Shown in pieces: positions 15,601 through 32,219 of a DNA stretch of 64,000 bases. Source of the stretch: Serratia plymuthica. GTDB lineage: Bacteria; Pseudomonadota; Gammaproteobacteria; Enterobacterales; Enterobacteriaceae. The stretch is taken from the NCBI RefSeq assembly GCF_018336935.1, contig NZ_CP068771.1:2356001-2420000 (forward strand), written 5' to 3'. How positions within the stretch are numbered: position 1 is the stretch's first letter; each line of letters starts with the position of its first letter. A program made the position numbers and the translations under genes. The notes below the pieces were generated by a model. It saw only the letters and a list, made by a program, of their open reading frames with translations, did not search any database and was not told where the DNA came from.

Positions 15601-18600
15601 ACGGCGAATCCGTATTTGGATCTTGCCGATAGCCCGTTCTACCTGGTGCGAGAAACGCAGCCATGGCCGGCGATGCAAGACGCCGGTGGCCGGCCGCTGC
15701 CGAGAATAGCCGGCGTCAGCAGTTTTGGCATCGGCGGGGCGAACGCGCACATCGTTCTGGAAGAGTACGTTGCGGAACCGGCCGGCGGCGTTACTGCCCC
15801 TTCTGTGGCGCCGGTGGCGATTGTCTTGTCGGCAAAAAAAGCCGCTCGCCTGGAGGCGGTCGCACAAGGTTTGGCCACCTACCTGGATTCTGCGGCTTTT
15901 GCCGAGCAGCAGCCGAGCCTGGCGGATATCGCTTATACCCTGCAAGTGGGGCGCGAAGCCATGGATGAACGCCTGGCCTTCGTCGCCGACTCCGTGCCGG
16001 CCCTGCAGGACAGATTGTCCCGCTATCTGGCCGACCCCAAACCGGCGCCGGGCATCTATCGCGGCAATGCGAAAGCGGGCAATGGCGCCTTATTGGCCGC
16101 GGCTGATGAAGACCTTCAGGCCTGGTGCCGACAAGGCGAGTACCACAAGCTGCTGGCGGCCTGGGTGCAGGGTGCCGTCGTTGACTGGAAAACGCTGTAC
16201 TCTGCGGCAACGCCACCCCGCAAGATCGGCTTGCCGACTTATCCGTTCGCACGGGATCGTTTCTGGTTGAAAGAGAAAACCGGCGAGGCTATGCCATCCC
16301 GGCCCGATCGTTTGCACCCGCTGGTACACCGCAATACCTCAGATCTGACCGCGCTCAGCTTTACCTCCTGGTTTGACGGCAGCGAATTCTTCCTGTCAGA
16401 CCATGTGGTGATGGGAAAACGCCTTTTGCCCGGCGTCGCCTATTTGGAAATGGCGCGCGCCGCCGTTGAACAGATGGTGGGGCGTGAACGGCATCTGCAG
16501 TTGACTCAGATCGTCTGGATTCGTCCTTACATCGCCGCCGGCGAAAACGGCCTTTCCCCGGTGACGGTAAAATTGCTGCCGCAATCGCCGACGGTGATTC
16601 GGTTCGAAATTTGTTCTCGGATGGCGGATGGCCAAACCCAGACGCATTGCCAGGGAAAAGCGATCGTGGCGGACTCGTTTGCGGCGAGCGAAACGCGGCT
16701 CGATCTGTCGGCGGCGATGGCCGAGCACCAGGAAGGCACGCTGGAGAAAGCCGAATGTTACCGGGCTTTCCATCAGTTGGGGATCGAATACGGCGCCGGA
16801 CATCAGGGCATTGAACGGCTGCATGTCGCCAGGGGGCGCGTGCTTGCGCAGCTGGCGCTGCCTGAAGCCCTCAAAGAGACGCTGGGCGAGTATGTTCTGC
16901 ATCCCAGCCTGATGGATTCTGCATTACAGGCGACGCTGGGGTTGTCCCAGGATCATCGGCTGGGTTTGCCGTTTGAACTGGAATCACTGGAGATCCTGCG
17001 CCGCTGCACATCCAGAATGTGGGCCCGCATTGCGTATGAACATGGCGCCGAGCCTGCGCTGCGGGCAAAAGTGCAAAAACTGACCGTTGAGCTATATGAC
17101 GATGCCGGGCGGCTCTGCGTTCATTTGCGGGGATTCAGCGCCCGCGCGCCTGAACCCGCCACGCCGCCCGGCAACGGCACGCTGTTGCTGGTGCCGACAT
17201 GGTCGCGCAAACAGGTTCGGGGCGATGTCGTTGCTCCGCCGGCGTACTCCCACCGTCAAACACTCTTCTGCGGCGAAGCTTCCGTCGCGAAAGCCATGGG
17301 CCTGACGGATGATCTGATTTTCCCGGCGATGGGCCCTGAAGAACATATCGCCCAGGACTTTCAGCAGCAGGCGCTGGCCTTGTTTGGCCGGGTAAAATCC
17401 CTGTTGGATGGGCGGCCCAGGCAGCCGATGCTGTTGCAAGTGGCGGTTGCCGGGGCGCTGTCCGCGCCGTTTTCCGCCGCGCTCTGCGGGGTGTTAAAAA
17501 CGGCGCGTTTAGAGAATGGCCGGTTTATTGGCCAGCTGATTGAGCTGGAGGCGACGGCGCGCGCCGACGAGATTAACGCCAGGCTGCGGGAAAGCAGCCT
17601 GGCGCCGGAAGACATTCACATACGCTACGGCCGGGAGGGTCGGCAGGTTTTATCCTGGCGGGAAGTGCGCTCGCTCACCGAAACCTCCGCCGCGCCTTCC
17701 GCGTCAGGGGCGGTCCGCATGCCGTGGAAAGAGCGGGGCGTTTATCTGATTACCGGCGGCGCGGGTGGGCTGGGGCTTATTTTTGCCACAGAGATTGCCC
17801 GTCAAACCCGCGGCGCCAGGCTGATCCTCACCGGACGAACGCCGATGAACGATCGGATCCAGGCCGCCGTCAGCCCGTTGACCACGCTGGGCGCTCAGGT
17901 TGACTATTGCCGGCTTGACGTCTGCGATCGCCCAGGGGTCGAGGCGCTGGCCGCCAGCGTCGTGGCGAAGCACGGCGCCATCAACGGCGTGTTGCATTGC
18001 GCCGGCGTGCTGCGCGATAGCTACATCCTGAAAAAGTCGCCGGAGGATTTTCTGGCCGTACTCGCACCTAAAGTGCAAGGGACGGTGAACCTGGATCTGG
18101 CCCTGGCGCGGCATCCGCTGGATTTCTTTATTCTCTTTTCCTCGACTGCGGCCGCCTTGGGCAATCCGGGGCAGGCTGATTATGTTACGGCGAACGGTTT
18201 CATGGATGTTTACGCTCACTACCGCCAGCGGCAGGTGGCGGCTAAGGCGCGGATGGGCAGAACTCTGACGATCAACTGGCCGCTGTGGAAAGACGGCGGC
18301 ATGGCGGTTGATGACGCATCTGAAACCCTGATGTACCAGAACACGGGCATGATCGCGATGTCTGCGGCTGCCGGTCTGCAGGCTTTCTATCAGGCGCTTG
18401 AGCGGGAAGAAAACCAGGTGCTGGTGATCGCCGGCGACATTGACAAGTTGCGCCTGACATTGGCCAAGGGTAATGAACAGCACCGCGCTGAGCCGGCGGC
18501 AGGCAGTGTGCCGCATGAGGCGGCGCAGATTGACAACAGGGGGCTGGAAGAGGCGGTGCAGCAGCTGTTGATCCGCGAAGTCTCCGCATTGCTTGACGTG

Positions 18601-21600
18601 GCGGCGGCCGAGATCGATCTGGATCTCGAATTGACGGAACTGGGCTTCGATTCCATTTTGACAACCGGGTTCGCCAACAGGCTGAACCAGCGCTATCAGC
18701 TCGACCTGCTGCCAACCCTGTTCTTCGAGTATCCAACGATTGCGGCGCTGAGCGGTTATCTAACGGCAACCTATCGGACCGCATTCGCAGCAAGGTTTAC
18801 CGCGTTCGCCCAGCCGGAAAGCGGGGAGCAACACCTGGCTGAACAGGCTGCGCCTCGGATAGCCGAACAGGTGTCCGCCCAGGCGGTGGATTTACCGGCG
18901 TTGCATGACGCGGTTCAGTCGCTTCTGATGCAGGAAATTTCAGCGTTGTTGCACGTGGACGCCGCTGACATCGATAACGATATTGAGCTAAGCGAGCTGG
19001 GCTTCGACTCCATACTGACGACCAGTTTTGCCAATAAGCTGAACCGGCAATACGCGCTGGAACTGCTGCCGACCGTGTTTTTCGAGTACCCGACCGTTGC
19101 GGGATTGACGCATTATCTGGCCGAACGCTATCGGGAAGGCTTTAGCCGGCTGTTTGCCGCGCAAGTGATGGCGCAAGCACCGCAAAGCGATGAGGCGCCG
19201 GCGCAAGATGTCTCAGCCGAACGCGCGCCCCAGCCGAAACCGTCCGCTTCGCCCGCCGTTCACCACCGGAACGACGCGCAGGAAGCGATCGCCATTGTGG
19301 GGATGAGCGGCAGTTTCCCCATGGCGCCGGATCTGGACGCCTACTGGGAAAATCTATTGCAGGGGAAAGATTGCATCAGCGAGGTGCCGCCAGAGCGTTG
19401 GAATTGGCGGGACTCCCTGCAGGCGGTACACAGTGCTGAAAACCGCGACAGTATTCGCTGGGGAGGATTCATTCAGGATATGGCGGAATTCGATCCGCTC
19501 TTTTTCGGTATCTCCCCCCGAGAGGCCGAACTGATGGATCCGCAACAGCGGCTGTTGATGACCCATGCCTGGAAAGTGATTGAAGAGGCAGGTTACTCGG
19601 CCGCTTCTTTGGCCGGCAGTACGCTGGGCATTTATGTCGGTACGGGAAACACCGGTTATGCGGGGCTGATCGTCGATGCGAAACTTCCGGCGGAAGGTTT
19701 CACCGCAACGGGGATTGTGCCTTCGGTCGGCCCGAATCGTATGAGCTACTTCCTCAATGTGCATGGGCCGAGCGAGCCGATTGAAACGGCGTGTTCCTCT
19801 TCGCTCATCGCCATTCATCGCGGTGTTTCAGCCTTGCGCCATGAAGGCTGCGATATGGTCATCGTAGGCGGCATCAATACATTGGTCACGCCGGATACGT
19901 TCGTCAGCTTTTGCAAAGCGGGCATGCTCGCCGCCGACGGCCGTTGTAAAACATTCTCCAGCCAGGCTGACGGCTATGTGCGCGGCGAGGGCGCGGGCAT
20001 GCTGTTGCTGAAGCGTTTATCGGCGGCCGAAGCGGACGGCGATCATATCTATGGCGTTATCCGTGGCAGCGCGCAAAATCACGGCGGGCGCGCCAGTTCC
20101 CTGACCGCGCCGAATCCAAAAGCGCAGGCGGCCCTGTTGGCCAGCGCCTACCGCGATGCCGGCATCGACCCCAGGACGGTCGGCTACATTGAGGCGCACG
20201 GGACGGGCACCAAACTCGGCGATCCGATTGAGATCAATAGCCTGAAAGCCGCGTTTCACGATCTGCAGGCACGCTATCCGGGCGAGGAATACCCTGAGGC
20301 GGAGTGCGGCGTCGGGTCGGTGAAAACCAACATCGGGCATTTGGAGATGGCGGCAGGCATTGCCGGCGTCATCAAAGTGTTGTTGCAGCTGAAACACCAG
20401 ACGTTGGTGAAGAGCCTGCACTGTGAAGAACTGAATCCCTATATCGATTTCACGAACACGCCATTCTATGTGGTGCGGGAGAATCGCCCCTGGCGCGCAT
20501 TGCGAAACGCGCAGGGTGACGCGTTGCCGCGCCGGGCCGGCGTCAGTTCTTTTGGTTTCGGCGGCGCCAACGCGCATATCGTGATCGAGGAATATCGCGA
20601 CAATAGGTCGGTGCTGCCGGCGCCGCAATCGCGCTATGTGATCCCGTTGTCAGCCAGGGATGATGTTCGCTTGCGTGACGTAGCCCTGAACCTCAGGCGA
20701 TATCTGGATCAGCAACGGGAAAACCCTGAGCTGACGCTAATGAATCTGGCCTATACGCTGCAAGTCGGGCGGGACGCCATGACGGCGCGACTGGGCTGGA
20801 TCGTGCAGTCCCTCGACGAGCTGAGGGTAAAGCTGGACGACTTTTTACAGGGTAACGAAGAACCCGGCGAGGTCTACCGTGGCCGGCGCAGCAGCCACAA
20901 TGCTCTGGTGGCGCAATTCTCGGCCGATGAAGAACTGCGCGAAGCCATCGCGAAATGGGCGGCGCGCGGTAAATACGCCAGGCTGCTGAGCCTTTGGTGC
21001 CAGGGGCTGGAGTTTGATTGGTCGGGCTTATATCAAGGGCAGCAGCCGCTTCGCCTGAGCCTGCCGACCTATCCCTTTGAGCGCCAGGCGTTCTGGCTTC
21101 CCGCCGCTCAGGGGCAGGAACACGCCGCCCCCCGCGTCTTGGCGCATGACGTTCACCGCCAGCCGGAGAAAACAGACGGCATACCCGCGCCATCATCCCT
21201 GGCGGACGGCACGCCGCAGAAGGCCGAGGCGCGCTTTGATCTTGAGGCTTACCTGACCGCGCTGATCGGCCGGCAGCTCAAAGTGGCCGAAGCGGCGATT
21301 GGCCCGGATACCGCTCTGGAGGAGTTGGGCATGGATTCGGTCGTGTCCATCGCGCTGTTAAATGACATCCGCGAAACCTTCCCGCACGTCTCCCGCTCGC
21401 TGTTTATGGAATACCACACCGTCGGTGAAATTCAGCTGTATCTGCGCAGCCATTTCAGCGAACGGCTGGCCATGCTGGGCAACCCAGGGCCGTTGGCAGA
21501 AGCGGAGCCGGAGCGGCAGGCGGAGGCAAGCAAAATGCGCGCGGAGGAGGCGCAGGGGCAAAATATCAGCATCATCGGCATGGCGGGGATCTTCCCGCAG

Positions 21601-23448
21601 GCAGAGGATATCGCTGCATTTTGGGATAATCTGCGCGCTGGCCGAGCGGCGCATTCCACGCTGAGTGACAAGCGCAGACGCCTGATGGCCCTGGATGAAG
21701 AAGAGGTCGGCAGCAGCAGAATCGGCGCCTATCTGGAGGGGGTCGAGTATTTCGATCGCAAACTGTTCAAGGTCTCTCACAAGGACGCGCAAAAACTGGA
21801 TCCCCAGATCCGAAAATTGCTTGAAGTCATTTGGCAATCCATCACGGACGCCGGTTATACCCTGAGCCAGTTCCGTGAGAAACGGACCGGGCTTTTTGTC
21901 GCCACCCGCGGGCATTCAGGCTATCAGGATATTCAGGCCAAAGTGGATCCGCAGCAGGCGGCTCAGTGGCGTTTCCAGGCGGAGCAGATCTCCGCTTACG
22001 CCAACCGCATTTCAAACATTCTGAACCTGTCGGGGCTCAGCGAGATCGTGGAAACCGGATGCGCCAGCTTTTTGGTTGCGATCAGGCACGCCATGAGCGC
22101 CATCAGAGAGGGGCGTTGCCAGCAGGCGATTGTCGCCACCGCGGAACTGGGGCTTTCGCCCTTCGTGCAGAACCGCACCGACGATCAAGCGCTGTACAGC
22201 TCTCATCCGGTCACCAAAAGCTTTGCCAGTGATTCCGACGGTTATGTGAAAAGCGAAGTGGTCGGCGCCATTATCCTGAAAGCGGAGGAGGATGCCTTGG
22301 CGCAGGGCGATGCCATTTACGTCAATGTCAAAGGCGTCGGCGTCAGCCACGGCGGCAAAGCCCCGTTGAAATGGTACAGCCCCAATATTGAGGGGCAAAA
22401 AGCGGCCATCGCCGCCGCCTTCGCGGAAACCGGGCTCGATCCGGCGACCATCTCCTATATCGAACCCGAGGCCAACGGTTCCCAGTTGGGCGACGCGGCG
22501 GAGCTGGTCGCCATTCAGGCGGCCTATGGCCCCCACCTGCAGGGCACCCAGTCGGCGCCTATCGCCATTGGTTCACTCAAACCCTTGACCGGGCACGCCG
22601 AAACGGCATCGACGTTCCCTGTCCTGGTGAAAATGGTGCTGTCCATGCAGCACCGCCAACTGGCGAAAATTGCGGGGCTCGGCCCGTTGAACGAAGGGAT
22701 CGCTCTGACCGACGGTTTTGAACTGCTCGATGAAGATCGCCCCTGGCAGAAGCGGGGGCCTCACCCACGGCGCGGCGCCATCCATTCCATGAGCATTGGC
22801 GGCGTGAACGCCCATTTGCTGCTTGAAGACTATGAAACGGAACACCACGCCGAGTGGTCCCCGGCCGAGCGGCCATTCATTTTCCTGTTTTCTGAGGCGG
22901 ATGAGGCGGGATTGGATCTGCTGGTGAGCGATTACCTGGACTTTCTGCCGCGTGCGTCGGCAAACCTCTCTGCACACGACGCGGCACAGGAGCCCACGCC
23001 AGAGGAGCTGCGGGCGCGCGAGTCGCTCTATTTGGAACGGCTCGAATATACCCTGCAACAGGGCAGAGAGCATCGAGACGTGAGACTGGCGGTCAGCGCC
23101 GCCAGCATTGCGCAACTGCAAGAGAAGTTGCAGCGCCGGCTGTCGCATACCGGCCATCAGGATGGCATTTACGACAGCCGCGCGACGTCATCCCTAAAAG
23201 AGGAGGCGTTGTCTTCCTTGAGCGACGGCGTGCGACAAGCCTTGTTGAAATGGCTGGCGGGGGATGCCGTGGAATGGGCCAAACTGCGGCAGGACGAAGG
23301 GTGGCGAGACGGGCTGCGCAAGCTTCATTTGCCCGTCAACCCATTGCGGAAGCTGTTCTGCTGGCATGAGGGGTTCCACGATAGCGACGTCGCCGACGGA
23401 GATCATGCAGTGCCGACAAACGCGGAACAGCGTTCTGTCGTGGAGTAA
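3652..23448 (+). CDS. oocN: giant trans-AT polyketide synthase, six KS domains, ends in a non-elongating KS
   Basis: A 6,598-residue protein. I start it at ATG 3652, which has GGGAG about 9 nt upstream and overlaps oocM by 8 nt; the frame is also open 33 nt further back. Domains (residues): KS1 36-466 (Cys203; HGTGT His replaced by Gln339; His385 kept); ACP1 Ser544; KS2 608-1017 (Cys761); KR 1439-1625; ACP2 Ser1748; KS3 1833-2254 (Cys1998); DH 2439-2660 (His2470, Asp2644); PS-like domain (His2759 with a collapsed HxxxG motif, Asn2915 for Asp); KR 3187-3377; ACP3 Ser3493; KS4 3601-4040 (Cys3772); DH 4220-4440 (His4251, Asp4422); KR 4695-4887; tandem ACPs Ser5001 and Ser5120; KS5 5211-5647 (Cys5381); ACP5 Ser5896; KS6 5970-6390 (Cys6137; His replaced by Glu6273; His6315 kept). 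There are no AT domains. The protein ends without an ACP after KS6, and the free ACP encoded next probably serves it. KS1 and KS6 should be condensation-incompetent. The DH plus PS-like pair fits tetrahydrofuran formation. Domain calls are from motifs; product assignment is inference. Confidence 0.93.
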   Translation: MSKQAAQLSFIAQWINNHKTASSDSASTLLAANGNIEPLAITGLAGYFPQCMSIAELWRHLDADEPLITTLPAQREAWYRQGEAEGDTPWSVLAGGFIPDIASFDAAKFGILPIEAEEMDPRQRLLLMSTYHTLEDAGLVPAALSKTQTGVFIGCESNEYAALMARHGYRPEFGLTQADSMIANRISYQFDLAGPSELINATCAGFAVALHRATLALRAGIIDRAIVGAANIMLVPDVTNRLNDASQLTHRGQVRSFGENGDGFIRSEGVGTLLLERLADVEKAGRRVYAVVRHTRVNFNGQGGVSMASPNTDAHCELIKDCYREAAIDPRSVSYIEAQGMGLPVADIAEWTAINRALSQLCDEQGLAFEPGYCRVSSLKPLLGHMHSASSLGALFKVIRSLQTDKIHKIPGFEQPNDYCDTQDTPCVFAKETQAWPAGEQPRIAAIHSYGSGGNNAHILIEEYRGAHPAGAEFPAASPHYAFAREYCWFQPSERPSQTARAPDARRLTETEADVRATIARLLGINGADDEACRQAFTDLGLDSVSVAAFVSRLTAAYPVKVRRSDLFSYTTPAALARVVAERMQSGAAAKAPRQTTVAPRAAQGGNDDIAIIGIDIKVAGADNAAEFWQVLREGRSSIGPVPQWRRQREDLQMKTSRGGFMAHIDRFDPLFFKISPREAHHMDPHHRLLLQSAWRAIEDAGYDPQAWCGQQHGIFVGMEESDYPLTEHSAITSVHTGTAPARIGYFLDTKGPLLAIGTACSSSLVALHYACQSILNGESELSLAGGCNLICQPERLLHGLSRMGDMLSPDGACYAFDHRANGMVVGEGCATVVLKRHEDALRDGDDVYAIIKGSAINYDGKTNGLTAPSGARQSELYAQVYRQSGVSPDQIDYVVSHGTGTLLGDPVECNALIDAFQREGAQNKQYCALTSPKTNIGHTQAASGIVNVITAALALKQREIPPSLNYAQPNADIDFADSPFYVNTELKRWDRERRFAAVSSFGHTGTNAHLVLQNAETPVKRQEEQSGRHEPYLMVLSAKSEARLKQMAANLLAADEPHSMGDLAYTLQVGRTPMPHRLAWFSDDWHGLQEALGQYLAGETKISASLDVYYADVSGTARSAAAQALLRDEGGAHGLQPGQTPPLARLQLAAWLRGETVDWAALYRDAAPRRMHLPTYPFEEERYWFASTDEVKALAPRRAAEAEQSDAVWIARERWREQPLPDAVNLGAGHCNRRVICVLPAAVQTTLGAGIMQIAGEGSPALFLHAAQTDADACSRFLAQLKMTAQTANEPESANALLCVVEPESAMDQLVPLFQGLLSSGLAVGRILIVSAFTDALERCYADALVAFGASLRLVLPETSVSFVGFDMAPGVERWQGVAASLPAVWAELQSEPGQNALYLQGKRHVPTYEQVQMASGAHAVNNDENAKAESCLKVGGCYLITGGLGGLGRIFARYLCENFMAKVILIGRSPLEPGKQADLRAIEQRGGQISYLQADVSALSQMESLFADCRRQGIRIDGILHAAGAQTQQTLAEKDLAGVHQVLAPKVLGVQAIDNAWQSVFGAEQALDFIVYFSSSAAVFGDFGAGDYAVANRFQMAYANRRHHGVRSARKTVAIGWPVWADGGMTQGSAEREQATSFYLKTSGQRALRSEEGLRVFEQLLAGEEGAALVMAGRPDALQRLLAGGQRQQGAQNRPAATTVTHPEMKGLTVEQCVLWELQQRVSDILSIERHRLQHDLNLADFGFDSISLAEFAAALSRRWKIAVSPALFFGHATLSRLSQYFMATHGALMHSCYGGSPDERESADPIAPMLPPAARNPGMHTPASVPSAQEEPIAVIGMSGRFPGARDVEEMWRYLAEGKSSVSQVSEAYLRGRDESCREHSSASARRLWCGVMPGVAEFDPLFFEISPREAQNMDPGQRQLLQETWKALEHAGYGEQALREHSIGTFVGVEEGAYGRFTAGEQVEITANHNGILASRLAYFLDLHGPVLAINTACSSGLVAAHLACASLRNRECDTALAAGVSLQLSTEGFDIMARSGMLSEDGTCYTFDQRANGMVPGEAVVVLVLKRLSQAEADGDRIHGLIRASGINYDGKTNGITAPNGVAQADLLKSVYRRAGISPAQIEYIVTHGTGTRLGDPVEINALNEAFKAHTDKQAFCALTSTKTNFGHTFAASGLLSAVSLIEALQRQIIPASLNCQQENDYITWAESPFYVNKTARAWPRVANKQRMGAVSAFGMSGTNAHLLIEEYAQAPAAPEQQRSHYLLCLSAKTEEALYLKAGDLVSHLQSSETESQSLAAIGYTLLRGRSHFRYRLAIVVEDREGAIVSLQQAEHGQRPNLFRGNGIPPGFIGQPAIQKHVDALLRQSQHSAGQEYQENLCALADYYCQGYVLKGDELLPDVSRCVVLPAYPFARERYWAEGSASLPARSVAAAQGALHPMLQDNASTLGELRFRAEFSGEEFFLKDHRVYGQKVLPGVCYLEMARAAYACAASPSVATPQPLRFSMKQVLWLQPAIAAQQTMTLYVGLCEQNEGLVDYRVYSENEGQQRRIHSQGVIVPHLNDAIPARGSLDVEQLKSQMTGPGYLPAQCYQRFSSMGLEYGESFQCIEQLLTGERQVLAKIALPNAATRQGFGLHPSLIDAALQTSLGLHGSEPRPDAVYVPFALEQLEIFGNIDTRLWVWLRLVATDNAADPQVQKMDVDLCDERGLICVSLRGFSTRMLSVAHPSEQDEPAAEMAVSSQRKTLSGTEYFLQDHGGLLPGMLSLAWMSELAAAHLQPEDPPAVIGLKQVVWRQPVAVDARGADIDLHLSRDQQGYRCTVSAQGAMHAQARVMIGSAGEPALQPLPLEAIAQRCRQRREQSACAEFFAAAIGPRLLGITRYDQGHQEALIALETPSDVDGETAALHPTLMNGAVLAAIMLATGGERQSDRPLMPFSLDELRVHRPLPGSLLAYIRQHPSESGSQQPIVSCDIWFTDRHGHILVEMKGLKMIAAPAASLVFARPQWARQQLAVLSHAERAPDAPPCFILAQGNDGWQTALQSAWPACRVMRLSSDADQTPAQLTLCLQQLFAQIKESVLACTEQAQRQALFILAAEPVNPSWLSAAAGLLKTARQEQPGLNGKVIRYPNTADAAMQLPARLRAEMQETEGAVEIRYDAAGGRSVREWHQTALTDAAGVPPMAAGSVIWITGGLGGIGYQLVRELGARYQARFVLSGRSALQGLNEQRLAALRQQGAQVTYYQGDMTDPEQVRRLVGQILQDEGQLNGVIHSAGVTRDAFIVNKTDPEVLEVLGPKVAGTLALDQATRDCELDFMVLFSSLSSAFGNTGQADYACANGFMDGFAFQRNQQVAEGLRRGKTLSLNWPLWRDGGMGISGQAAEQLRRQSGLVPMPAAVGIEALLLGLHGPEPQLAVMYGEAGQIGRRLSETRDPLPAGSSSREEAPRQRAGENGPVRVARVHAMLVGMVAQLQKLDESKVELDMELSKYGFNSIDFTEFAGRLNKAYGLTLMPTVFFEHSTLRAMGHHLADTYPDAVAQIAGAVEMAAAKAPAPLITATSLATRDDGEKTVGWRAAASASAPQQEAPATASAATDGPQEPEAIAVIGMSGRFPQSRNLDEFWRNLEANQDLIGRVPADRWNWREYYGNPHETPGKTNVTCGGFMQDVDCFDPLFFGISPREAQSLDPQFRIFLETVWATIEDAGYRASDLSGSNTGVFVGVSTSEYKDAWLKYSHDKFGIGDPPWLSHFALANRVSYILNLHGPSEPIDTACSSSLVAIHRAIEAMRAGSCDMALVGGANIIVNPGITITAGEAGILSEDGRCKTFDISADGYGRGEGVGAILLKPLRQAIADGDRIQGLIRGSAENHGGKATSPTAPNPVAQQALLTQAYRRSGIDPARVGYIETHGTGTRLGDPIEINGLKKAFAALYQERGQSMPGEAGCGLGSVKTNIGHLEAAAGISGVLKVLLMFRHQKMPGNVHLQTANPYLDLADSPFYLVRETQPWPAMQDAGGRPLPRIAGVSSFGIGGANAHIVLEEYVAEPAGGVTAPSVAPVAIVLSAKKAARLEAVAQGLATYLDSAAFAEQQPSLADIAYTLQVGREAMDERLAFVADSVPALQDRLSRYLADPKPAPGIYRGNAKAGNGALLAAADEDLQAWCRQGEYHKLLAAWVQGAVVDWKTLYSAATPPRKIGLPTYPFARDRFWLKEKTGEAMPSRPDRLHPLVHRNTSDLTALSFTSWFDGSEFFLSDHVVMGKRLLPGVAYLEMARAAVEQMVGRERHLQLTQIVWIRPYIAAGENGLSPVTVKLLPQSPTVIRFEICSRMADGQTQTHCQGKAIVADSFAASETRLDLSAAMAEHQEGTLEKAECYRAFHQLGIEYGAGHQGIERLHVARGRVLAQLALPEALKETLGEYVLHPSLMDSALQATLGLSQDHRLGLPFELESLEILRRCTSRMWARIAYEHGAEPALRAKVQKLTVELYDDAGRLCVHLRGFSARAPEPATPPGNGTLLLVPTWSRKQVRGDVVAPPAYSHRQTLFCGEASVAKAMGLTDDLIFPAMGPEEHIAQDFQQQALALFGRVKSLLDGRPRQPMLLQVAVAGALSAPFSAALCGVLKTARLENGRFIGQLIELEATARADEINARLRESSLAPEDIHIRYGREGRQVLSWREVRSLTETSAAPSASGAVRMPWKERGVYLITGGAGGLGLIFATEIARQTRGARLILTGRTPMNDRIQAAVSPLTTLGAQVDYCRLDVCDRPGVEALAASVVAKHGAINGVLHCAGVLRDSYILKKSPEDFLAVLAPKVQGTVNLDLALARHPLDFFILFSSTAAALGNPGQADYVTANGFMDVYAHYRQRQVAAKARMGRTLTINWPLWKDGGMAVDDASETLMYQNTGMIAMSAAAGLQAFYQALEREENQVLVIAGDIDKLRLTLAKGNEQHRAEPAAGSVPHEAAQIDNRGLEEAVQQLLIREVSALLDVAAAEIDLDLELTELGFDSILTTGFANRLNQRYQLDLLPTLFFEYPTIAALSGYLTATYRTAFAARFTAFAQPESGEQHLAEQAAPRIAEQVSAQAVDLPALHDAVQSLLMQEISALLHVDAADIDNDIELSELGFDSILTTSFANKLNRQYALELLPTVFFEYPTVAGLTHYLAERYREGFSRLFAAQVMAQAPQSDEAPAQDVSAERAPQPKPSASPAVHHRNDAQEAIAIVGMSGSFPMAPDLDAYWENLLQGKDCISEVPPERWNWRDSLQAVHSAENRDSIRWGGFIQDMAEFDPLFFGISPREAELMDPQQRLLMTHAWKVIEEAGYSAASLAGSTLGIYVGTGNTGYAGLIVDAKLPAEGFTATGIVPSVGPNRMSYFLNVHGPSEPIETACSSSLIAIHRGVSALRHEGCDMVIVGGINTLVTPDTFVSFCKAGMLAADGRCKTFSSQADGYVRGEGAGMLLLKRLSAAEADGDHIYGVIRGSAQNHGGRASSLTAPNPKAQAALLASAYRDAGIDPRTVGYIEAHGTGTKLGDPIEINSLKAAFHDLQARYPGEEYPEAECGVGSVKTNIGHLEMAAGIAGVIKVLLQLKHQTLVKSLHCEELNPYIDFTNTPFYVVRENRPWRALRNAQGDALPRRAGVSSFGFGGANAHIVIEEYRDNRSVLPAPQSRYVIPLSARDDVRLRDVALNLRRYLDQQRENPELTLMNLAYTLQVGRDAMTARLGWIVQSLDELRVKLDDFLQGNEEPGEVYRGRRSSHNALVAQFSADEELREAIAKWAARGKYARLLSLWCQGLEFDWSGLYQGQQPLRLSLPTYPFERQAFWLPAAQGQEHAAPRVLAHDVHRQPEKTDGIPAPSSLADGTPQKAEARFDLEAYLTALIGRQLKVAEAAIGPDTALEELGMDSVVSIALLNDIRETFPHVSRSLFMEYHTVGEIQLYLRSHFSERLAMLGNPGPLAEAEPERQAEASKMRAEEAQGQNISIIGMAGIFPQAEDIAAFWDNLRAGRAAHSTLSDKRRRLMALDEEEVGSSRIGAYLEGVEYFDRKLFKVSHKDAQKLDPQIRKLLEVIWQSITDAGYTLSQFREKRTGLFVATRGHSGYQDIQAKVDPQQAAQWRFQAEQISAYANRISNILNLSGLSEIVETGCASFLVAIRHAMSAIREGRCQQAIVATAELGLSPFVQNRTDDQALYSSHPVTKSFASDSDGYVKSEVVGAIILKAEEDALAQGDAIYVNVKGVGVSHGGKAPLKWYSPNIEGQKAAIAAAFAETGLDPATISYIEPEANGSQLGDAAELVAIQAAYGPHLQGTQSAPIAIGSLKPLTGHAETASTFPVLVKMVLSMQHRQLAKIAGLGPLNEGIALTDGFELLDEDRPWQKRGPHPRRGAIHSMSIGGVNAHLLLEDYETEHHAEWSPAERPFIFLFSEADEAGLDLLVSDYLDFLPRASANLSAHDAAQEPTPEELRARESLYLERLEYTLQQGREHRDVRLAVSAASIAQLQEKLQRRLSHTGHQDGIYDSRATSSLKEEALSSLSDGVRQALLKWLAGDAVEWAKLRQDEGWRDGLRKLHLPVNPLRKLFCWHEGFHDSDVADGDHAVPTNAEQRSVVE

Positions 23449-23787: not shown

Positions 23788-24957
23788 ATGGAAAAGTATG
23801 ACATTCAAAGTGAAACGCAACGCAAAGCCTTCGACCTGATGCCACACTTCTTTCTCGATCAGGAGGAGCAGGCGAATTTCCACTTTATGATGCATATGCG
23901 GTTGCTGTTGAACGCGCCTGAGTTTATGGCCACCTTCGAACGCGACCTGTTTGAGAAGAAATTGGCCGACCTCCAGGCGAAATGCCCGGATCTGGCCAAC
24001 ATAGATTGCGCCGATACCTTCATAAAAATGAAGTCTTACGATTTCTCAAATATGGATCGGCATACATTCCAGCACATGATCAATGATGCAAGCAATCCGC
24101 CGATTATTGCCAAGGGTTTTCTCAACGACACGAAAGCCGTTCAACAATGGACCCATGAATACCTGATTGAGCATTACAAAGACACTGAAATTATCGCGGT
24201 GGGTTATGATGAAAAAGAAACCAGCCTGAAAAAACTGAAGCTGGAAAAAATACTGCGCTCTCAATTGGACAAAGATTCAAAGGTCAGCTACTACATCAAC
24301 AACTCTGCGGAAATATTTAACGACTATCCGGATTTAATTGACGAAGTGGGTGCTGAAAAAATACTTGATCTGTTTTATGGTCATTCGGCGAATAGTTTCA
24401 GTCAGTTATTTGTCGGCAATCTTCGCACCTGGGGAACCAACTGGCATCAGGGAAATGATATTTCCTGCGCACTGATGATCAGCGGGGTAAAACGGTGGTA
24501 TTTCGTCGATCCGCGGCTAGGGTATATCTTGCGTCCCTTCTTTGACGGCGCCAACGGCATGTCAGCCAAGATGGATGCTCGTCTGGATATGAACTTCCAT
24601 AAAATCCATAGTCCACTTTATGCGTACGCGCCCAAATTCTATGTCGATCTGGAACCCGGCGACGTCATCTTCTTCACGAAATACTGGCCGCATGCGGTTA
24701 TCAACACCACACCGCTGCAGATCATGGCCAATATGCGAATGACGGAAGTGAATCTGGATACCATGACCAAGGGCAAAGATGTCCCGACGCTGATGCCGGT
24801 GTACGACAACATTCTGAACTCAGATCCCTCCTTCATCAAATTCAAGTTCGATATCTTTAATAATCTGGGGAAAAAATCCAAAACTATCGGCGATGAGAAT
24901 TATTTCTCTGCCTATACGTCGACCGGCGATGTTCTGACCAATGGGGATAAACAATGA
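23788..24957 (+). CDS. oocP: JmjC/cupin-fold Fe(II)/2-oxoglutarate enzyme with HxG...H site; probable halogenase
   Basis: A 389-residue protein of the JmjC (FIH-like, cupin_8) fold. The core strands contain TNWHQGND, where a JmjC hydroxylase has HxD, and GDVIFFTKYWPHAV, which supplies the distal ligand. The iron ligands are therefore His220 and His302, with Gly222 in place of the usual Asp or Glu. Loss of this carboxylate (HxG or HxA) is the hallmark of Fe/2-oxoglutarate halogenases such as SyrB2, because it frees a coordination site for chloride. Oocydin carries a vinyl chloride, and I recall backbone gamma-chlorination being assigned to this protein with OocQ. AGAGG lies upstream of the start. 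The stop overlaps oocQ by 4 nt. The N-terminal ~150 residues match no fold I recognise. Ligand residues are read directly; chlorinating activity is inferred from them and the context. Confidence 0.85.
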   Translation: MEKYDIQSETQRKAFDLMPHFFLDQEEQANFHFMMHMRLLLNAPEFMATFERDLFEKKLADLQAKCPDLANIDCADTFIKMKSYDFSNMDRHTFQHMINDASNPPIIAKGFLNDTKAVQQWTHEYLIEHYKDTEIIAVGYDEKETSLKKLKLEKILRSQLDKDSKVSYYINNSAEIFNDYPDLIDEVGAEKILDLFYGHSANSFSQLFVGNLRTWGTNWHQGNDISCALMISGVKRWYFVDPRLGYILRPFFDGANGMSAKMDARLDMNFHKIHSPLYAYAPKFYVDLEPGDVIFFTKYWPHAVINTTPLQIMANMRMTEVNLDTMTKGKDVPTLMPVYDNILNSDPSFIKFKFDIFNNLGKKSKTIGDENYFSAYTSTGDVLTNGDKQ

Positions 24958-25313: not shown

Positions 25314-25436
25314 TAACCGATTCGCCTGAATAAAATTGATGCACGCCTTCTATTGATTTCGCCCGGTTGTACTAGACTCATGGGGGGCGTGCGGCAGCGC
25401 TGTTAACTGCGCCAGGGAAAGTGATTGGAGAAACAA

Positions 25437-28400
25437 GTGACGAAGCAAAATAACGACAGTGAAAACGCCTCAATATTAAATAATATACATGATAAGGAAA
25501 TAGCGGAAAGTCTGAGCCCGGATGAGAAAAAAGACGCTGTCGCGATTATCGGTATAGGCGGGTTCTTCCCAGGCGCCGATTCTATCGAAGAATTTTGCCT
25601 CAAGTTGGATAAGCAAGCGTCGCTGTTTTCACCGGTGCCTGACAATCACTTTCCCGGGCCGGAAATGCGCAACAGATATGGCGCATTTTTGCACGATATA
25701 GCCGGCTTTGATCCTGACGTATTCAATATCGGCCCGATGGAGGCCGAGTACATGGATCCCAGGACGCGTTTACTCTTGATGTCGGTGTGGCATACCCTGG
25801 AGGACGCCTGTTATTTGCCGCAGCAGCTACGCGACGCCAATGTCGATGTCTATATCGCCTCGGAAGGCGCCGCTTATACGCCGTTTCTCGCCAAGGCTGA
25901 GCTGACGAGTTATTCCATATTGGGCATGATGTCCTGGTCTTTACCGAATTACCTCTCGCACGCTTTTCGTTTCAACGGCAAAAGCCTGTATATCGATACG
26001 GCCTGTTCCGGCGCCAGCGTGGCTTTGCATCAGGCCAAGGAAGCGCTGTTGCGCGGAGAGACGGATTATGCGCTGGTCGGCGCCGCTAACCTGTTATTCG
26101 GCGATGCGCTGGCCGGATCGTATTTGGGGCAGGAATCGCTGGGCATTCTCGGGGGCGAGGCGAGCTGTTCGCCTTTTCAGGCCGATGCCAAAGGCTTTCT
26201 GCCCGCCGAGGCGACGGTCACCGTGTTGCTCAAGCGGTTATCCCAGGCTATCGACGATCGGGATAACATCCACGGGGTTATTTTAGGCTCCGCCGTCAAC
26301 CATACCGGCGGCTACGGCAGCCTCACGATGCCGTCGGCCGAATCACAGGCGAAGGTCATTGTCGGCGCCTATCGTCAAGCCGGTATCGATGTGGATACCC
26401 TGGGCTATATTGAAGCTCATGGCGCCTCATCGCTGCTGGCCGATGCCGAAGAAATCAAGGGATTCAAGCGTGCGGATGCGCAATTGGCAACGCGCCTGGC
26501 GCCCTCGACGGGCACGCCCTGCAAAATCAGCACGCTTAAACCGAATATGGGGCATGCCAATTCGGCGTCCGGCCTGGTGTCGCTGATCCGCGTGCTGCAC
26601 GCGTTTAAAACGCGGAAAAAGCCGGGCATCAAGGATTTCACCGGCTGCAGTGAAAAAATCAAGCTTGAAGGTTCACGTTTTTACCTCAATGAGGAGACGG
26701 AAGAGTGGCCGCCGTTGGTGGATGCCAATGGCCGGGAGATCGCACGCCGGGCCGCGATTAACAACTTTGGCGCGGGCGGAGTTAACGCCCATTTGCTGCT
26801 GGAGGCGTTCTCCGGTTACGAGGATCGCCGCGAGAGCGCCGGTGATGAGGCGCATTCGCAGGAGAAGGGGTACTTTCTGGCGCTGTCGGCGCTGCATGAA
26901 TGGCAGTGGATCCGCTATGCGGAATCTCTCCTGGCCTTTTTGCAGCAGTCCCCCGACGTCCCGCCGGGCGCGCTGGAATATTTCTATCTGACCGCGCGCA
27001 ATAAGTTTGAGCACCGGGTGGTCTTTCGTTATACCGACACCGAAAATTTGCAAGAGAAGCTGACCCAGTTTATCGCCGCCAAAGGGCAGAAAGCTTACTA
27101 CCTGAAAAGCGGGGCGCGCGATGAGCATAAGGCGCTCGACATATTTAACCGCCACCACCGGCTGTCGGACTTGTTGACGACGCTGGATTGGGAAAATGAC
27201 AAACGCTTTCTTATCGATCTGTGGGTTCAGGGCGTCGACTTCCCGCTGCATCAGACCCTTGGCATACCGACGTTTAACAAGCTGTCGCTGCCGCGTTACC
27301 CTTTTAACCTTGAACATTACTGGAGCGCGGCGGTGTCGCCGTCAGCGCCGCCCGATGCGCAGACGCATCGGCACCTACATCCGTTAGTGCAGCAAAATAC
27401 GTCGGATTTTTATACTCAGCGCTACAGCAGTTTCTATACCGGCGATGAGTTTTTTCTGGCCGATCATCTGGTTAAAGGCCAGAAAGTGCTGCCCGGGGTT
27501 GCCTATCTGGAGTTGGCGCGCGCGGCGCTGGCCGATGCCTTGGGCCAGCCGGCGGCGATCAGGCTGGAAAATATCAGTTGGATACGGCCAATGCGCGTAG
27601 CGGCGCCAGGGTTGCACGTCGTGGTCGAACTGCATCCCGAAGGCGATGCGCGTTTCGGCTTTGAGATATACAGCACCGGCGCTTCCGCCGCGGGGAGCGA
27701 AAGAGTCACGCATTGCCGCGGACAGGCCGGGATAGCGCCTGCCGGGGCGTCGGCGCCACCTGCAATCGATATTCGCGCTCTGCAGCGCCAATGCGCCGTC
27801 AGGCATCTGGACAGCCAGGCATGTTATGCCGCTTACAGCGCAATGGGCATTCTTCACGGCCCGGCCTATCAGGGCGTGATCTCGATAGATGAGGGCGCTA
27901 CCCAGGCTATTGCCCGTATCGAATTGCCCGCCTGCGTGGCCAGGAGCCACAGTCAACTCTTTTTGCACCCCAGCCTGATGGATTCGGCCTTGCAAATGGC
28001 CGCCGGTTTGCTGGTCGACGCTGAACGCCCTGAATTCGCATTGCCGTTTGCATTGGAACATTTGGACATCTTCCCGCGAGAGGGCGCCAGCGCGCTGCCC
28101 GAACGCCTGTGGGTCTGGGCGCGGTATAAAACCGGGTCCGCTAAAACCGACAAAGTCAAAAAAATGGATTACGACCTGTGCGACGAAGCCGGCCGTGTTT
28201 GGGTCAGGCTCGGCGGCTTTTCTTCCCGAGGGGTGGACAATGCGCCGCCGGCCACCGACCGCACGGCGACAACAACCGAGACACGGCCCGCTGACCCGCG
28301 CGTCGCGGCGGAAAGCGCCGAAAACAAAGGATTGCAAGACAAGCTGCTCCCTTTGATGCAGCAGTCACTGGCCAGGTTGCGGAAGCTGGAAGCGGGGCGA

Positions 28401-31400
28401 ATCGATCCCCATGCCGAACTGTCTCAGTTTGGTCTGGATTCCATTCAGCTTACGGAGTTTACCAACCTGTTGAATCGCCAATACTCGCTGACATTGACGC
28501 CAACGGTATTCTTCGAATATTCCACCCTGGGGGCGTTTGTGGCTTATCTGGCGCAAACCCATCCGGCCGCATTCTCGACGCTGCTTGCCGCACATGAGCC
28601 GCTCGCGCAGCCCGCCGCAGACACTGAGCAAGAAAACGGGGGGCAATCACGCGAACCTAAGCGCCATGACGAGACGGCGCGCGCGCCCCGGACGTTGCCT
28701 CGACAAGGGGCGGTCTATCCCCCGGCGCCCACCGCGCCGGCAAACGAGCCGATAGCCATTGTCGGCATGACGGGTCGTTTCCCGATGGCGCAGGATCTGG
28801 ACGCCTTTTGGGACAACCTGGTGAACGGCAAAGATTGCATCAGCGAAATTCCTGAGCAACGCTGGGACTGGCGGGCACTGTATGGCGACCCCTTGCGTGA
28901 AGTGAATAAATGCCAGGTGAAATGGGGCGGATTCATTGATGGTATCGATGAATTTGATCCGCTGTTCTTTGGCATTTCGCCGAAAGAAGCCGAGCTGATG
29001 GACCCTCAACAACGCTTATTGATGACTTACATATGGAACGTCATTGAAGATGCGGGCTACAGCGCCGGCGAAATCTCCGGTACCGACACCGGCATTTTCG
29101 TGGGAACCGGCATGAGCGGATACGGCAGCCTCATCTCAGAGGCCAGGCTCCCCATCGAAGGGTATTCGCTGACCGGCATTGTCCCCTCCGTCGGACCTAA
29201 CCGAATGAGTTTCTTCCTGAATGTTCACGGCCCCAGTGAGCCGGTGGAAACCGCGTGCTCTTCTTCGTTGATCGCCATTCACCGCGCCGTTCAGGCTATC
29301 AACGCCGGCGAATGTGAACAGGCTATTGTCGGCGGCGTGAATACGCTGGTAACCCCGGACGGGTATATCAGTTTCAGCAAGGCCGGCATGCTGTGCCAGG
29401 ACGGCCGCTGCAAAACCTTCTCCAGCGCGGCTAACGGTTATGTGCGGGGAGAAGGCGTCGGCATGCTTTTCCTGCGCAAACTCAGCGTGGCGGAAGCGTC
29501 GGGCGATCATATCTATGGCTTGATTCGTTCCAGCGCGGAAAATCACGGCGGCCGGGCCAATTCATTAACGGCGCCCAATCCGAAAGCGCAAACGGCCTTG
29601 TTGAAGCGGGCTTACGCCAAAGCCGGGATCGATCCGCGCAGTATCGGGTACATCGAGGCTCACGGCACAGGAACGCCGTTGGGCGATCCGATCGAGATCG
29701 ATGGGCTGAAAAGCGCGTTTCAAGACTTATATCGCAAGACGCCGGCGGCAACCGATCTGCACGACCGGCCTCAACACTGCGGTTTGGGCTCGGTAAAGAC
29801 CAATATCGGCCACTTGGAAATGGCGGCCGGCATTGCCGGCGTGATCAAAGTGTTATTGCAGCTGCAGCACAAGACGCTGGTGAAGAGTTTACATTCCGAA
29901 CAACTCAATCCTTATATCCAGCTGGATAACTCGCCCTTTTATGTCGTGCGGGAGAATCAGCCCTGGCTTGCCCCTCAGGATGCGCAGGGGCAGGCGCAAC
30001 CTCGCCGGGCCGGCGTCAGCTCTTTCGGCTTTGGCGGCGCCAATGCGCATATCGTGCTGGAGGAATACACCGGCGGAACGACGGCCACGGACGAGCGGGG
30101 CAAAGAGCCTGCGGAACTCGCCATGGTGATCCTCTCGGCAAAGAACGCCGAGCGCCTGATGGCGGCGGCGCAGAATCTGCTCTCCCGCATCACGGCCGAA
30201 AACAAGGCGCGGCCGCCGTTGGATGAGCTCGCTTATACCTTGCAGGTCGGGCGAGATGCGATGGAGCAACGGTTGGGGATCCTGGTTTCATCCCTTGACG
30301 AACTGGCTGAGAAACTCAACCAGTTCCTGGCGGGGGAAGAGGCTATCGATGGCCTGTATCGCGGTAATGTCCGACAGAATAAAGAGATGCTGGCCATGTT
30401 CGTCACGGACGAAGACATGACCGCTACCCTCGATCTTTGGTTCCATAAGCGTAAGCACGCAAAAATCCTGGCGTTATGGGTGAAGGGGATGGACGTTGAT
30501 TGGTATCGGTTATACCCGCAGCAGCGGCCAAAACGCATCAGCCTGCCGACATACCCGTTCGCGACCGATCAATACTGGATCAAAGATGTCCGCCACGCGG
30601 CGTTGAGCCTCTGCGCCGCGCAAACGCCAGACGCCGTGCCCGAGGATCTCGCCACGAGCGCCGCGCAGAATCTGGCTCCAGACGATGACTTCAGCCATGT
30701 CGCGCTCTGGGAAACGGATGACGCCTCCCTGGAGAGCATCACGGCCTCGCCAATGACGGGAAAGGTGCTGATTGTCGCGGGGGAGCGGGATATGGCGCTG
30801 GAAACTGCGCTGATCGCCAAACTGAGCGGCCAAACCGCACGCCTGGTGCGTTTCTCCCTGAGCGACGCGGCGACGGGGGAAACGCGGCAGACCGGCCCCG
30901 ACAGCTGGACGTGCGACATCCGGAATGAAAACGCGCTCGGCCAGTGCCTGGATAACGTCGGCGGCATACAGCATGTCTTTTTCATTGCCGACGGCGCGGA
31001 TAGCCAACCATGGGCGGATGCGGCAACGCTCACGGCCAGTTTGCAGCGCAACGAGTTGCAACTGCTGCGTTTGGCAAAATCGCTGCAACAGCGGCTGGCG
31101 AAAGAGGATGCGCTGGATTTTACCGTGATTACCCAAGACAACCACGCGTTGTCAGCCGATGAGATTCGTTGCCACGGCGCCGGGATTACCGGCCTGGCTT
31201 ATTCCATCGCTCAGGGCGATCACCGTTTCAGGGTCAGGAATTTGGACGTTTCCCTGCGAGACGTGCAATCGCCCGCGCGGCGAGAAACATTGCTGCGGCA
31301 GATCATCAACGAAGCGCCCAGTGAGCGCGGCGAACAAATTCGCCTGTTTTCCGGCCGGCGCTACCGGCAAACCTTCTTCCGTCTCGATCCGCGCAGTTAC

Positions 31401-32219
31401 AGCGACGAGAACGCCATCAAACATGGCGGCGTCTATCTGATTCTGGGCGGCAGCGGGACAGTGGGCGGCGTCATCACCCGTCAGCTCTTACAACATTACC
31501 GGGCGAAAGTGATTTGGTTGGGCCGCCAGCCTGATTCCAGCCCTGCGGTGCAAAGCCGGTTGGATGCATTGGCAAGCGTGGGCGAGCGGCCTGATTATTT
31601 CCAGGCCGATGCGACGGACCTGGCCTCTTTGCAGGCGGCCCTGGCGCAAATCAAGCTGAAATATCCCCGCATCGACGGCGCGATATTCGCCGGACTGGTT
31701 TTTGACGCCGAAAATACCATCAGCCAGACGACGGAACCGGCTTTCTGGCAAATACTGCAGGTCAAAGCGTCAGGCAGCCTCAATTTCTACCGGGCGCTCC
31801 AGCAGGAATCGTTGGATTTCCTGGTCTATTTCTCTTCCTGTCAGGCCTTCTCGTTTTCCGGCGCCGCGACGCTGTCGGCCTATGCCGCCGGGATTACGTT
31901 CTCTGACACGCTGGTGCGCACCCTGCAGGCTCAGGCCGGGTATCCGGTGGGAATCATCAATTGGGGCTTCTGGCAAGCCTCACTGGCCGGTTTGCCGGCC
32001 AGCCAAAGCATTTTCGCATTAAGTGATGCGGAGGGTTTCACCTGTTTTGAGCGTTTTGTCACGCTGCTGCAGCAGAAGCGCCAGGGGCAGTTCGTCTGCC
32101 TGAATGCCTCTGCGCCGGTACAGCAACTGATGAATCTGCATCCGCATGAGTCCGTGCTGGTCAGCCATCAACGACAACCTTCACCCGACACCTTTAATCA
32201 GGGGATGATCAATGCCTAA
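25437..32219 (+). CDS. oocR: trans-AT polyketide synthase KS-DH-ACP-KS-KR (ends before its ACP)
   Basis: A 2,260-residue PKS. I choose GTG 25437, which has GGAG 6 nt upstream; a TTG four codons earlier is also in frame. Domains (residues): KS7 34-465 (Cys190; the HGTGT box reads HGASS with its His kept); DH 647-870 (His677 in HxxxGxxxxP, Asp849 in DxxxQ); ACP Ser1002; KS8 1104-1545 (Cys1274, canonical); KR 1998-2212 (GxxGxxG loop, Tyr2149, with Ile in place of the Asn of YxxxN). The protein stops after the KR, so the methyltransferase and tandem ACP that complete this module lie on OocS. KS7 follows the chlorination station and its module has a DH but no KR. KS8 strongly resembles KS5 of OocN. 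The stop overlaps oocS by 8 nt. Confidence 0.92.
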   Translation: MTKQNNDSENASILNNIHDKEIAESLSPDEKKDAVAIIGIGGFFPGADSIEEFCLKLDKQASLFSPVPDNHFPGPEMRNRYGAFLHDIAGFDPDVFNIGPMEAEYMDPRTRLLLMSVWHTLEDACYLPQQLRDANVDVYIASEGAAYTPFLAKAELTSYSILGMMSWSLPNYLSHAFRFNGKSLYIDTACSGASVALHQAKEALLRGETDYALVGAANLLFGDALAGSYLGQESLGILGGEASCSPFQADAKGFLPAEATVTVLLKRLSQAIDDRDNIHGVILGSAVNHTGGYGSLTMPSAESQAKVIVGAYRQAGIDVDTLGYIEAHGASSLLADAEEIKGFKRADAQLATRLAPSTGTPCKISTLKPNMGHANSASGLVSLIRVLHAFKTRKKPGIKDFTGCSEKIKLEGSRFYLNEETEEWPPLVDANGREIARRAAINNFGAGGVNAHLLLEAFSGYEDRRESAGDEAHSQEKGYFLALSALHEWQWIRYAESLLAFLQQSPDVPPGALEYFYLTARNKFEHRVVFRYTDTENLQEKLTQFIAAKGQKAYYLKSGARDEHKALDIFNRHHRLSDLLTTLDWENDKRFLIDLWVQGVDFPLHQTLGIPTFNKLSLPRYPFNLEHYWSAAVSPSAPPDAQTHRHLHPLVQQNTSDFYTQRYSSFYTGDEFFLADHLVKGQKVLPGVAYLELARAALADALGQPAAIRLENISWIRPMRVAAPGLHVVVELHPEGDARFGFEIYSTGASAAGSERVTHCRGQAGIAPAGASAPPAIDIRALQRQCAVRHLDSQACYAAYSAMGILHGPAYQGVISIDEGATQAIARIELPACVARSHSQLFLHPSLMDSALQMAAGLLVDAERPEFALPFALEHLDIFPREGASALPERLWVWARYKTGSAKTDKVKKMDYDLCDEAGRVWVRLGGFSSRGVDNAPPATDRTATTTETRPADPRVAAESAENKGLQDKLLPLMQQSLARLRKLEAGRIDPHAELSQFGLDSIQLTEFTNLLNRQYSLTLTPTVFFEYSTLGAFVAYLAQTHPAAFSTLLAAHEPLAQPAADTEQENGGQSREPKRHDETARAPRTLPRQGAVYPPAPTAPANEPIAIVGMTGRFPMAQDLDAFWDNLVNGKDCISEIPEQRWDWRALYGDPLREVNKCQVKWGGFIDGIDEFDPLFFGISPKEAELMDPQQRLLMTYIWNVIEDAGYSAGEISGTDTGIFVGTGMSGYGSLISEARLPIEGYSLTGIVPSVGPNRMSFFLNVHGPSEPVETACSSSLIAIHRAVQAINAGECEQAIVGGVNTLVTPDGYISFSKAGMLCQDGRCKTFSSAANGYVRGEGVGMLFLRKLSVAEASGDHIYGLIRSSAENHGGRANSLTAPNPKAQTALLKRAYAKAGIDPRSIGYIEAHGTGTPLGDPIEIDGLKSAFQDLYRKTPAATDLHDRPQHCGLGSVKTNIGHLEMAAGIAGVIKVLLQLQHKTLVKSLHSEQLNPYIQLDNSPFYVVRENQPWLAPQDAQGQAQPRRAGVSSFGFGGANAHIVLEEYTGGTTATDERGKEPAELAMVILSAKNAERLMAAAQNLLSRITAENKARPPLDELAYTLQVGRDAMEQRLGILVSSLDELAEKLNQFLAGEEAIDGLYRGNVRQNKEMLAMFVTDEDMTATLDLWFHKRKHAKILALWVKGMDVDWYRLYPQQRPKRISLPTYPFATDQYWIKDVRHAALSLCAAQTPDAVPEDLATSAAQNLAPDDDFSHVALWETDDASLESITASPMTGKVLIVAGERDMALETALIAKLSGQTARLVRFSLSDAATGETRQTGPDSWTCDIRNENALGQCLDNVGGIQHVFFIADGADSQPWADAATLTASLQRNELQLLRLAKSLQQRLAKEDALDFTVITQDNHALSADEIRCHGAGITGLAYSIAQGDHRFRVRNLDVSLRDVQSPARRETLLRQIINEAPSERGEQIRLFSGRRYRQTFFRLDPRSYSDENAIKHGGVYLILGGSGTVGGVITRQLLQHYRAKVIWLGRQPDSSPAVQSRLDALASVGERPDYFQADATDLASLQAALAQIKLKYPRIDGAIFAGLVFDAENTISQTTEPAFWQILQVKASGSLNFYRALQQESLDFLVYFSSCQAFSFSGAATLSAYAAGITFSDTLVRTLQAQAGYPVGIINWGFWQASLAGLPASQSIFALSDAEGFTCFERFVTLLQQKRQGQFVCLNASAPVQQLMNLHPHESVLVSHQRQPSPDTFNQGMINA

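Follow-up and report, generated by a model that had tools for sequence, protein, structure and literature searches.

OocP of the oocydin polyketide synthase, a published JmjC-fold halogenase, and relatives with Asn or Ala at the carboxylate position of the iron site

The window (the whole stretch of 64,000 nucleotides of Serratia plymuthica DNA that was analysed) carries genes of the oocydin trans-AT polyketide synthase (PKS), among them one for a protein, OocP, in which the carboxylate ligand of a JmjC-type iron site is replaced by Gly. This raises two questions: whether OocP is a halogenase, and what has become of the same site in its relatives. The genes lie in the order OocN (a large PKS, ORF 3619-23448), OocO, OocP, OocQ and OocR, their names being taken from the oocydin papers (PMC4552970, PMC11260071), which, like the AspH paper (PMC6817910), are cited here from portions of their text. 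The features of this region and of the related loci are collected in Table 1. OocR is presumed to receive the chlorinated chain.

Table 1. Positions of features in the window and, for the last three lines, in the related loci named.
Feature	Position	Strand	Remarks
OocN last ketosynthase domain, EANGS	21559..22815	+	Glu (22468-22470) for first catalytic His; Cys kept
OocO, free-standing acyl carrier protein (ACP), 89 aa	23494..23763	+	Pfam PP-binding E 1.5e-12
OocP, 389 aa	23788..24957	+	Pfam Cupin_8 E 1.4e-14; 8a82_A phmmer E 4.4e-271; model and fold search
His220, first iron ligand	24445..24447	+	His in 48/48 rows
Gly222 (GGA), carboxylate-ligand position of JmjC hydroxylases; presumed chloride site	24451..24453	+	
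Lys235, presumed 2-oxoglutarate-binding lysine	24490..24492	+	Lys in 47/47 rows reaching that position
His302, second iron ligand	24691..24693	+	45/45 rows reaching that position
OocQ, partner protein of OocP, 119 aa	24954..25313	+	8a82_B phmmer E 3.6e-77
OocR, downstream PKS	25425..32219	+	Start is the mechanical ORF start; named by position, after PMC4552970/PMC11260071
HCA gene, L027	9681-10739	-	
HCA gene, L028	5912-6976	+	
HxN OocP homologues, L005-L010	10001-11113 to 10001-11167		

The sequence, motif, fold, gene order and conservation of OocP were all established in this analysis. His220-Gln-Gly222 and His302 align with the His-x-Asp and His of JMJD5, Gly222 standing in the place of Asp, and OocP lacks the HxD/E...H facial triad; judged from its sequence, it appears to possess the two-His site with Ala or Gly for the carboxylate found in Fe(II)/2-oxoglutarate halogenases. 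Lys235 was assigned on the assumption that the His+15 spacing of FIH applies here too. Asp224, two residues beyond Gly222, was considered as a substitute ligand and rejected, as several relatives have Ala there (HLGNA).

The AlphaFold model of OocP finds its best fold match in chain A of PDB entry 8a82, with JmjC enzymes next, and this predicted model has the double-stranded beta-helix fold of the 2-oxoglutarate oxygenases. In Pfam the protein scores above the cut-off for Cupin_8, and at 16.3 bits remains below the cut-off of 24 for JmjC. Entry 8a82 bears the title "Fe(II)/aKG-dependent halogenase OocPQ" and the release date 2023-03-08. Its chain A matches OocP over residues 1-389 with two residue differences in the printed alignment, and its chain B is OocQ, specified by the gene after OocP and matched over 1-119; by sequence the two adjacent genes of the window thus encode the OocPQ pair. 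The observation made in the first-pass annotation, an HxG...H motif at the HxD...H positions of a JmjC/FIH-like fold, is therefore confirmed and its interpretation supported; because the structure has been out since March 2023, the finding was already known and OocP is ruled out as a new halogenase. We take 8a82 to be the structure of Fraley et al. 2023. Modular gamma-chlorination and the structure of the heterocomplex were reportedly described by Hemmerling et al. (2022, Angew. Chem.) and Fraley et al. (2023, Structure).

The genetics are likewise the work of others. OocP has been termed a trans-acting halogenase and OocQ its auxiliary protein (Science 2024, PMC11260071); in the same paper deletion of oocQ and oocR, not of oocP alone, abolished chlorination, which returned when oocQR was supplied from a plasmid. 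Earlier, bioactivity was lost upon deletion of oocP and nearly lost upon deletion of oocQ, and an oocO deletion mutant made no oocydin A (PMC4552970, 2015). In the portions of that paper cited here OocP is described as cupin-like with no function assigned, and both halogenation and hydroxylation were predicted for the flavin enzymes OocK/OocM, a prediction that the later papers supersede. The 8a82 title and the 2024 study (PMC11260071) agree with the view, given in the first-pass annotation, of a JmjC-fold enzyme that chlorinates a PKS-bound chain.

We put at roughly 95% the probability that OocP is the JmjC-fold Fe(II)/2-oxoglutarate halogenase of the oocydin PKS, working as follows. His220 and His302 would hold Fe(II), and Gly222 would leave vacant the place of the Asp of JmjC hydroxylases, so that chloride could bind the iron there. 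By analogy with SyrB2-type enzymes, 2-oxoglutarate and O2 may then give rise to a chloro-ferryl species, which would take a hydrogen from an ACP-borne acyl chain and give back chlorine in radical steps; the same analogy makes OocO, the product of the adjacent upstream gene, the most likely carrier. OocQ pairs with OocP as a heterodimer, as in the 8a82 heterocomplex, and is required for chlorination. That OocP is instead a plain two-His JmjC hydroxylase, the chlorine coming from OocK or OocM, seems very improbable: AspH and FIH D201G do function without the carboxylate (PMC6817910) and Matilla 2015 did predict the flavin enzymes to halogenate (PMC4552970), but chlorination disappears and returns with oocQR, and the roles given to OocP and OocQ in PMC11260071 agree with the 8a82 title.

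Searching a protein database with OocP (E <=1e-5) returned 47 matches, giving 48 rows with that of the window; position 222 is Gly in 46 of these and Asn in the other two (P0045, P0046), which group with flavobacterial loci. A scan of species genomes yielded ten loci (L001-L010), four of them HxG (Serratia marcescens MSU97, Dickeya oryzae, a verrucomicrobial MAG and Tahibacter harae) and six HxN (Flavivirga jejuensis, two Bizionia, Aquimarina sp. RZ0 and two uncultured Flavobacteriaceae). An OocQ homolog lies directly 3' of the OocP homolog in all ten (E 4.6e-20 or better). Counting the window, 11/11 cases have an upstream free ACP that bears the motif DEYGFxSM (x is E, D or T), the one in the window being called by Pfam; the last upstream ketosynthase is of the EANG type, with Glu for the first catalytic His, in the same 11/11. 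In L005 and L010 this ketosynthase is followed by a KR. In the window it retains its Cys together with EANGS; the 2015 paper, in the portions cited, calls the triad absent (PMC4552970).

The flavobacterial loci (L005-L010) have the EANG ketosynthase, free ACP, OocP homolog and OocQ homolog in that order in 6/6 cases, and in every one the third ligand position is occupied not by Gly or Ala but by Asn (codons AAT/AAC). A profile search with the HxN rows added ten proteins, with Asn in all nine that reach the site (P0067-P0075); P0076 stops short of it and was left out of the count. Among solved structures P0069 matches 8a82_A best (E 9.4e-76), this being its sole match below 0.1, and the L005 protein shares 38-44% identity with eight HxG forms. 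The equivalents of Thr217, His220, Lys235 and His302 are invariant in the eight HxN rows of alignment A3. Values of dN/dS were 0.057 and 0.021 in the two pairs with unsaturated dS, dS being finite in 4 of 15 pairs; the structure model of an HxN protein has a pLDDT of 69.2. Between the PKS and the ACP, L010 carries a gene (8132-9499) for a 455-aa protein with no Pfam match, and L005 one (9108-9608) for a DUF3237 protein. A literature search, with most subscription journals outside its scope, returned no report of HxN or HCA forms, which may still have been published.

Three readings of the Asn form were weighed, their ranking being a matter of judgement. The HxN relatives may still be chlorinases, at a little under an even chance, with Asn turned from the iron or displaced and chloride bound as in OocP. 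The EANG ketosynthase, DEYGFESM ACP and OocQ partner, kept in all six loci, argue for this, as do the conserved His, Thr217 and Lys235 equivalents and the identity of the L005 protein to the HxG forms. To our knowledge, on the other hand, the known Fe/2-oxoglutarate halogenases carry a small Ala or Gly at the carboxylate position; Asn is bigger and its amide oxygen can bind metal. The AspH paper, too, names His-Xxx-Ala as the halogenase motif (PMC6817910). No product has been found, which weighs on this reading and on the next.

In the second reading, a plausible one to which we give only slightly lower credence, the reaction has changed: Asn would serve as a neutral third ligand, chloride would be shut out and the chain would be hydroxylated or desaturated. 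Decay does not explain the change: every copy examined that reaches the site has Asn, and selection on the gene is purifying. Retention of OocQ, a part of the halogenase module in OocPQ, counts against a changed reaction, and Asp-to-Asn variants of other 2-oxoglutarate enzymes are usually poor catalysts. It is unlikely that the HxN proteins are catalytically dead scaffolds, since although pseudo-enzymes often have Asn where a metal ligand would be, the four invariant residues and the purifying selection speak against it.

Ala, the third state, occurs beside a PKS in two Cupin_8 proteins with a His-Cys-Ala (HCA) motif (L019/L027 and L023/L028; 54% identical), each of which lies beside a free ACP behind a PKS. 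The closest solved structure to the L028 protein is that of OocP (E 8.9e-25), followed by JMJD5 (E 1.1e-11). These two are possibly a second type of JmjC-fold PKS halogenase. Small proteins of 77 and 86 aa without a Pfam match are specified beside the L027 and L028 genes. The EANG signature was ruled out for these loci, as Cys-His-His is intact in the ketosynthases read there (L027 and L028). No OocQ homolog was detected beside HCA or Bacteroidota HNA proteins, either in L011-L026 and L031-L057 (2.8-4.2 kb each) or in the longer L027-L030 and L058-L063, L010 serving as positive control; within the loci searched, the OocQ matches all adjoin HxG or HxN genes. L017 and L020, HCA proteins that are more distantly related, lack an adjacent ORF of PKS size, the longest being 529 aa (L030) and 741 aa (L029), and the L017 contig is only 5.5 kb long. 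The HCA gene at L029:8957-10018 directly follows genes that, judged by their first residues, are ketosynthase III-, P450-, acyl-CoA ligase- and epimerase-like; short genes with a leader-like MKTLKGGG stretch lie about 6-7 kb from it.

Five of 349 genomes of the window's phylum match: that of the window itself, G760 with an HCA protein, and three with remote HxD proteins. With the HCA profile, matches come from five of 343 genomes of the window's family, again that of the window and G760, the remaining three having HxG proteins with OocQ. On the flavobacterial side, three of 397 genomes from the family of G003 match at E <=1e-30, all already known; 13 of 295 genomes of its class match at E <=1e-10, in 22 places that include the HxN gene of G003. 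Four of 66 genomes in the genus of the Aquimarina locus match at E <=1e-6 (two HxN and two HCA), and in the genus of G004 all three are HxN.

The carboxylate position holds Ala (15), Glu (3) or Ser (1) in the 19 rows that represent a wider Bacteroidota group in the tree set, and all 19 retain both the lysine and the second His. The Glu rows fall among Ala rows in the tree, and the carboxylate may therefore have been regained. Of the further proteins, L047 has Gly and L048 Asp. Six stretches of Bacteroidota DNA contain Cupin_8 genes in tandem (L058-L060) or singly (three, including L061 and L063); no modular PKS was seen in these six by ORF reading, as the longest ORF measures only 836 aa.

In a tree of 46 rows, a branch supported at 99/97 has on one side the HxG and HxN proteins together with the two HCA proteins linked to a PKS, with supports of 100/99 for HxN, 94/85 for HxG and 87/87 for HxD. 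Four long rows (L048, HxD; L017 and L020, HxA; L047, HxG) had been left out of it; with all 50 rows the branch stands at 97/91, and two changes of the Gly label are required, because L047 carries Gly while falling outside the OocP branch. Two sequences were dropped from the aligned set, L072_1 for its wrong reading frame and L054_2 as a fragment. The tree includes 16 of the 57 distinct proteins from the OocP-database and HxN-profile searches, and the PKS setting is known from the loci only, not from each database-search protein. HxD proteins are under-sampled (6/50 rows) because rows were gathered with carboxylate-less profiles. The topology is compatible with a single early loss of the carboxylate, after which the Gly, Asn and Ala states arose; with HxD thin and the root not fixed, a single loss is not thereby established.

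We tentatively suggest, at somewhat less than even odds, that one JmjC (Cupin_8) lineage gave rise to a PKS-linked family without the carboxylate, comprising Gly with OocQ, Asn with OocQ and, at two loci, Ala without OocQ, and that the Asn form is functional with a two-His plus carboxamide site. If so, the Asn form either chlorinates with Asn present or has switched reaction within a complete PKS halogenation module. One clade with Gly and a second with Asn in the same module would offer a natural comparison for chlorination versus hydroxylation, a question that AspH, in the text cited, leaves open (PMC6817910).

Of the known systems the OocPQ of the Serratia oocydin PKS (8a82) is the same protein pair as that of the window, with no difference of substance. 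JMJD5 and FIH retain the Asp ligand and act on proteins as hydroxylases, whereas OocP has Gly and works with a PKS and OocQ. FIH D201G (PDB 3d8c) and AspH resemble OocP in having a two-His iron site without a protein carboxylate. AspH binds metal via two His only; unlike OocP it is a hydroxylase and displayed no halogenase activity in chloride, and FIH D201G is a variant that stays catalytically viable with the carboxylate removed (PMC6817910). The HxG motif, offered in the first-pass annotation as the signature of chloride binding, is thus not diagnostic by itself; since AspH, which also lacks the carboxylate, displayed no such activity, loss of this ligand alone is insufficient for a halogenase. 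SyrB2-type halogenases share with OocP the His-x-Ala/Gly...His logic and acyl-carrier-bound substrates. They belong to another, PhyH-like subfamily, whereas OocP is a Cupin_8/JmjC protein in which a Pfam scan to E 1 matched Cupin_8, JmjC, Cupin_2, Cupin_1 and Cas9_C_2 and not PhyH. SyrB2 is absent among the best 50 fold-search matches listed, although a ranked list that omits it does not test likeness. The origin separate from SyrB2 that had been proposed is made likely by the Pfam assignments, if not by direct comparison with SyrB2, and a JmjC-fold halogenase suggests that the exchange of carboxylate for chloride also arose outside the PhyH-like enzymes.
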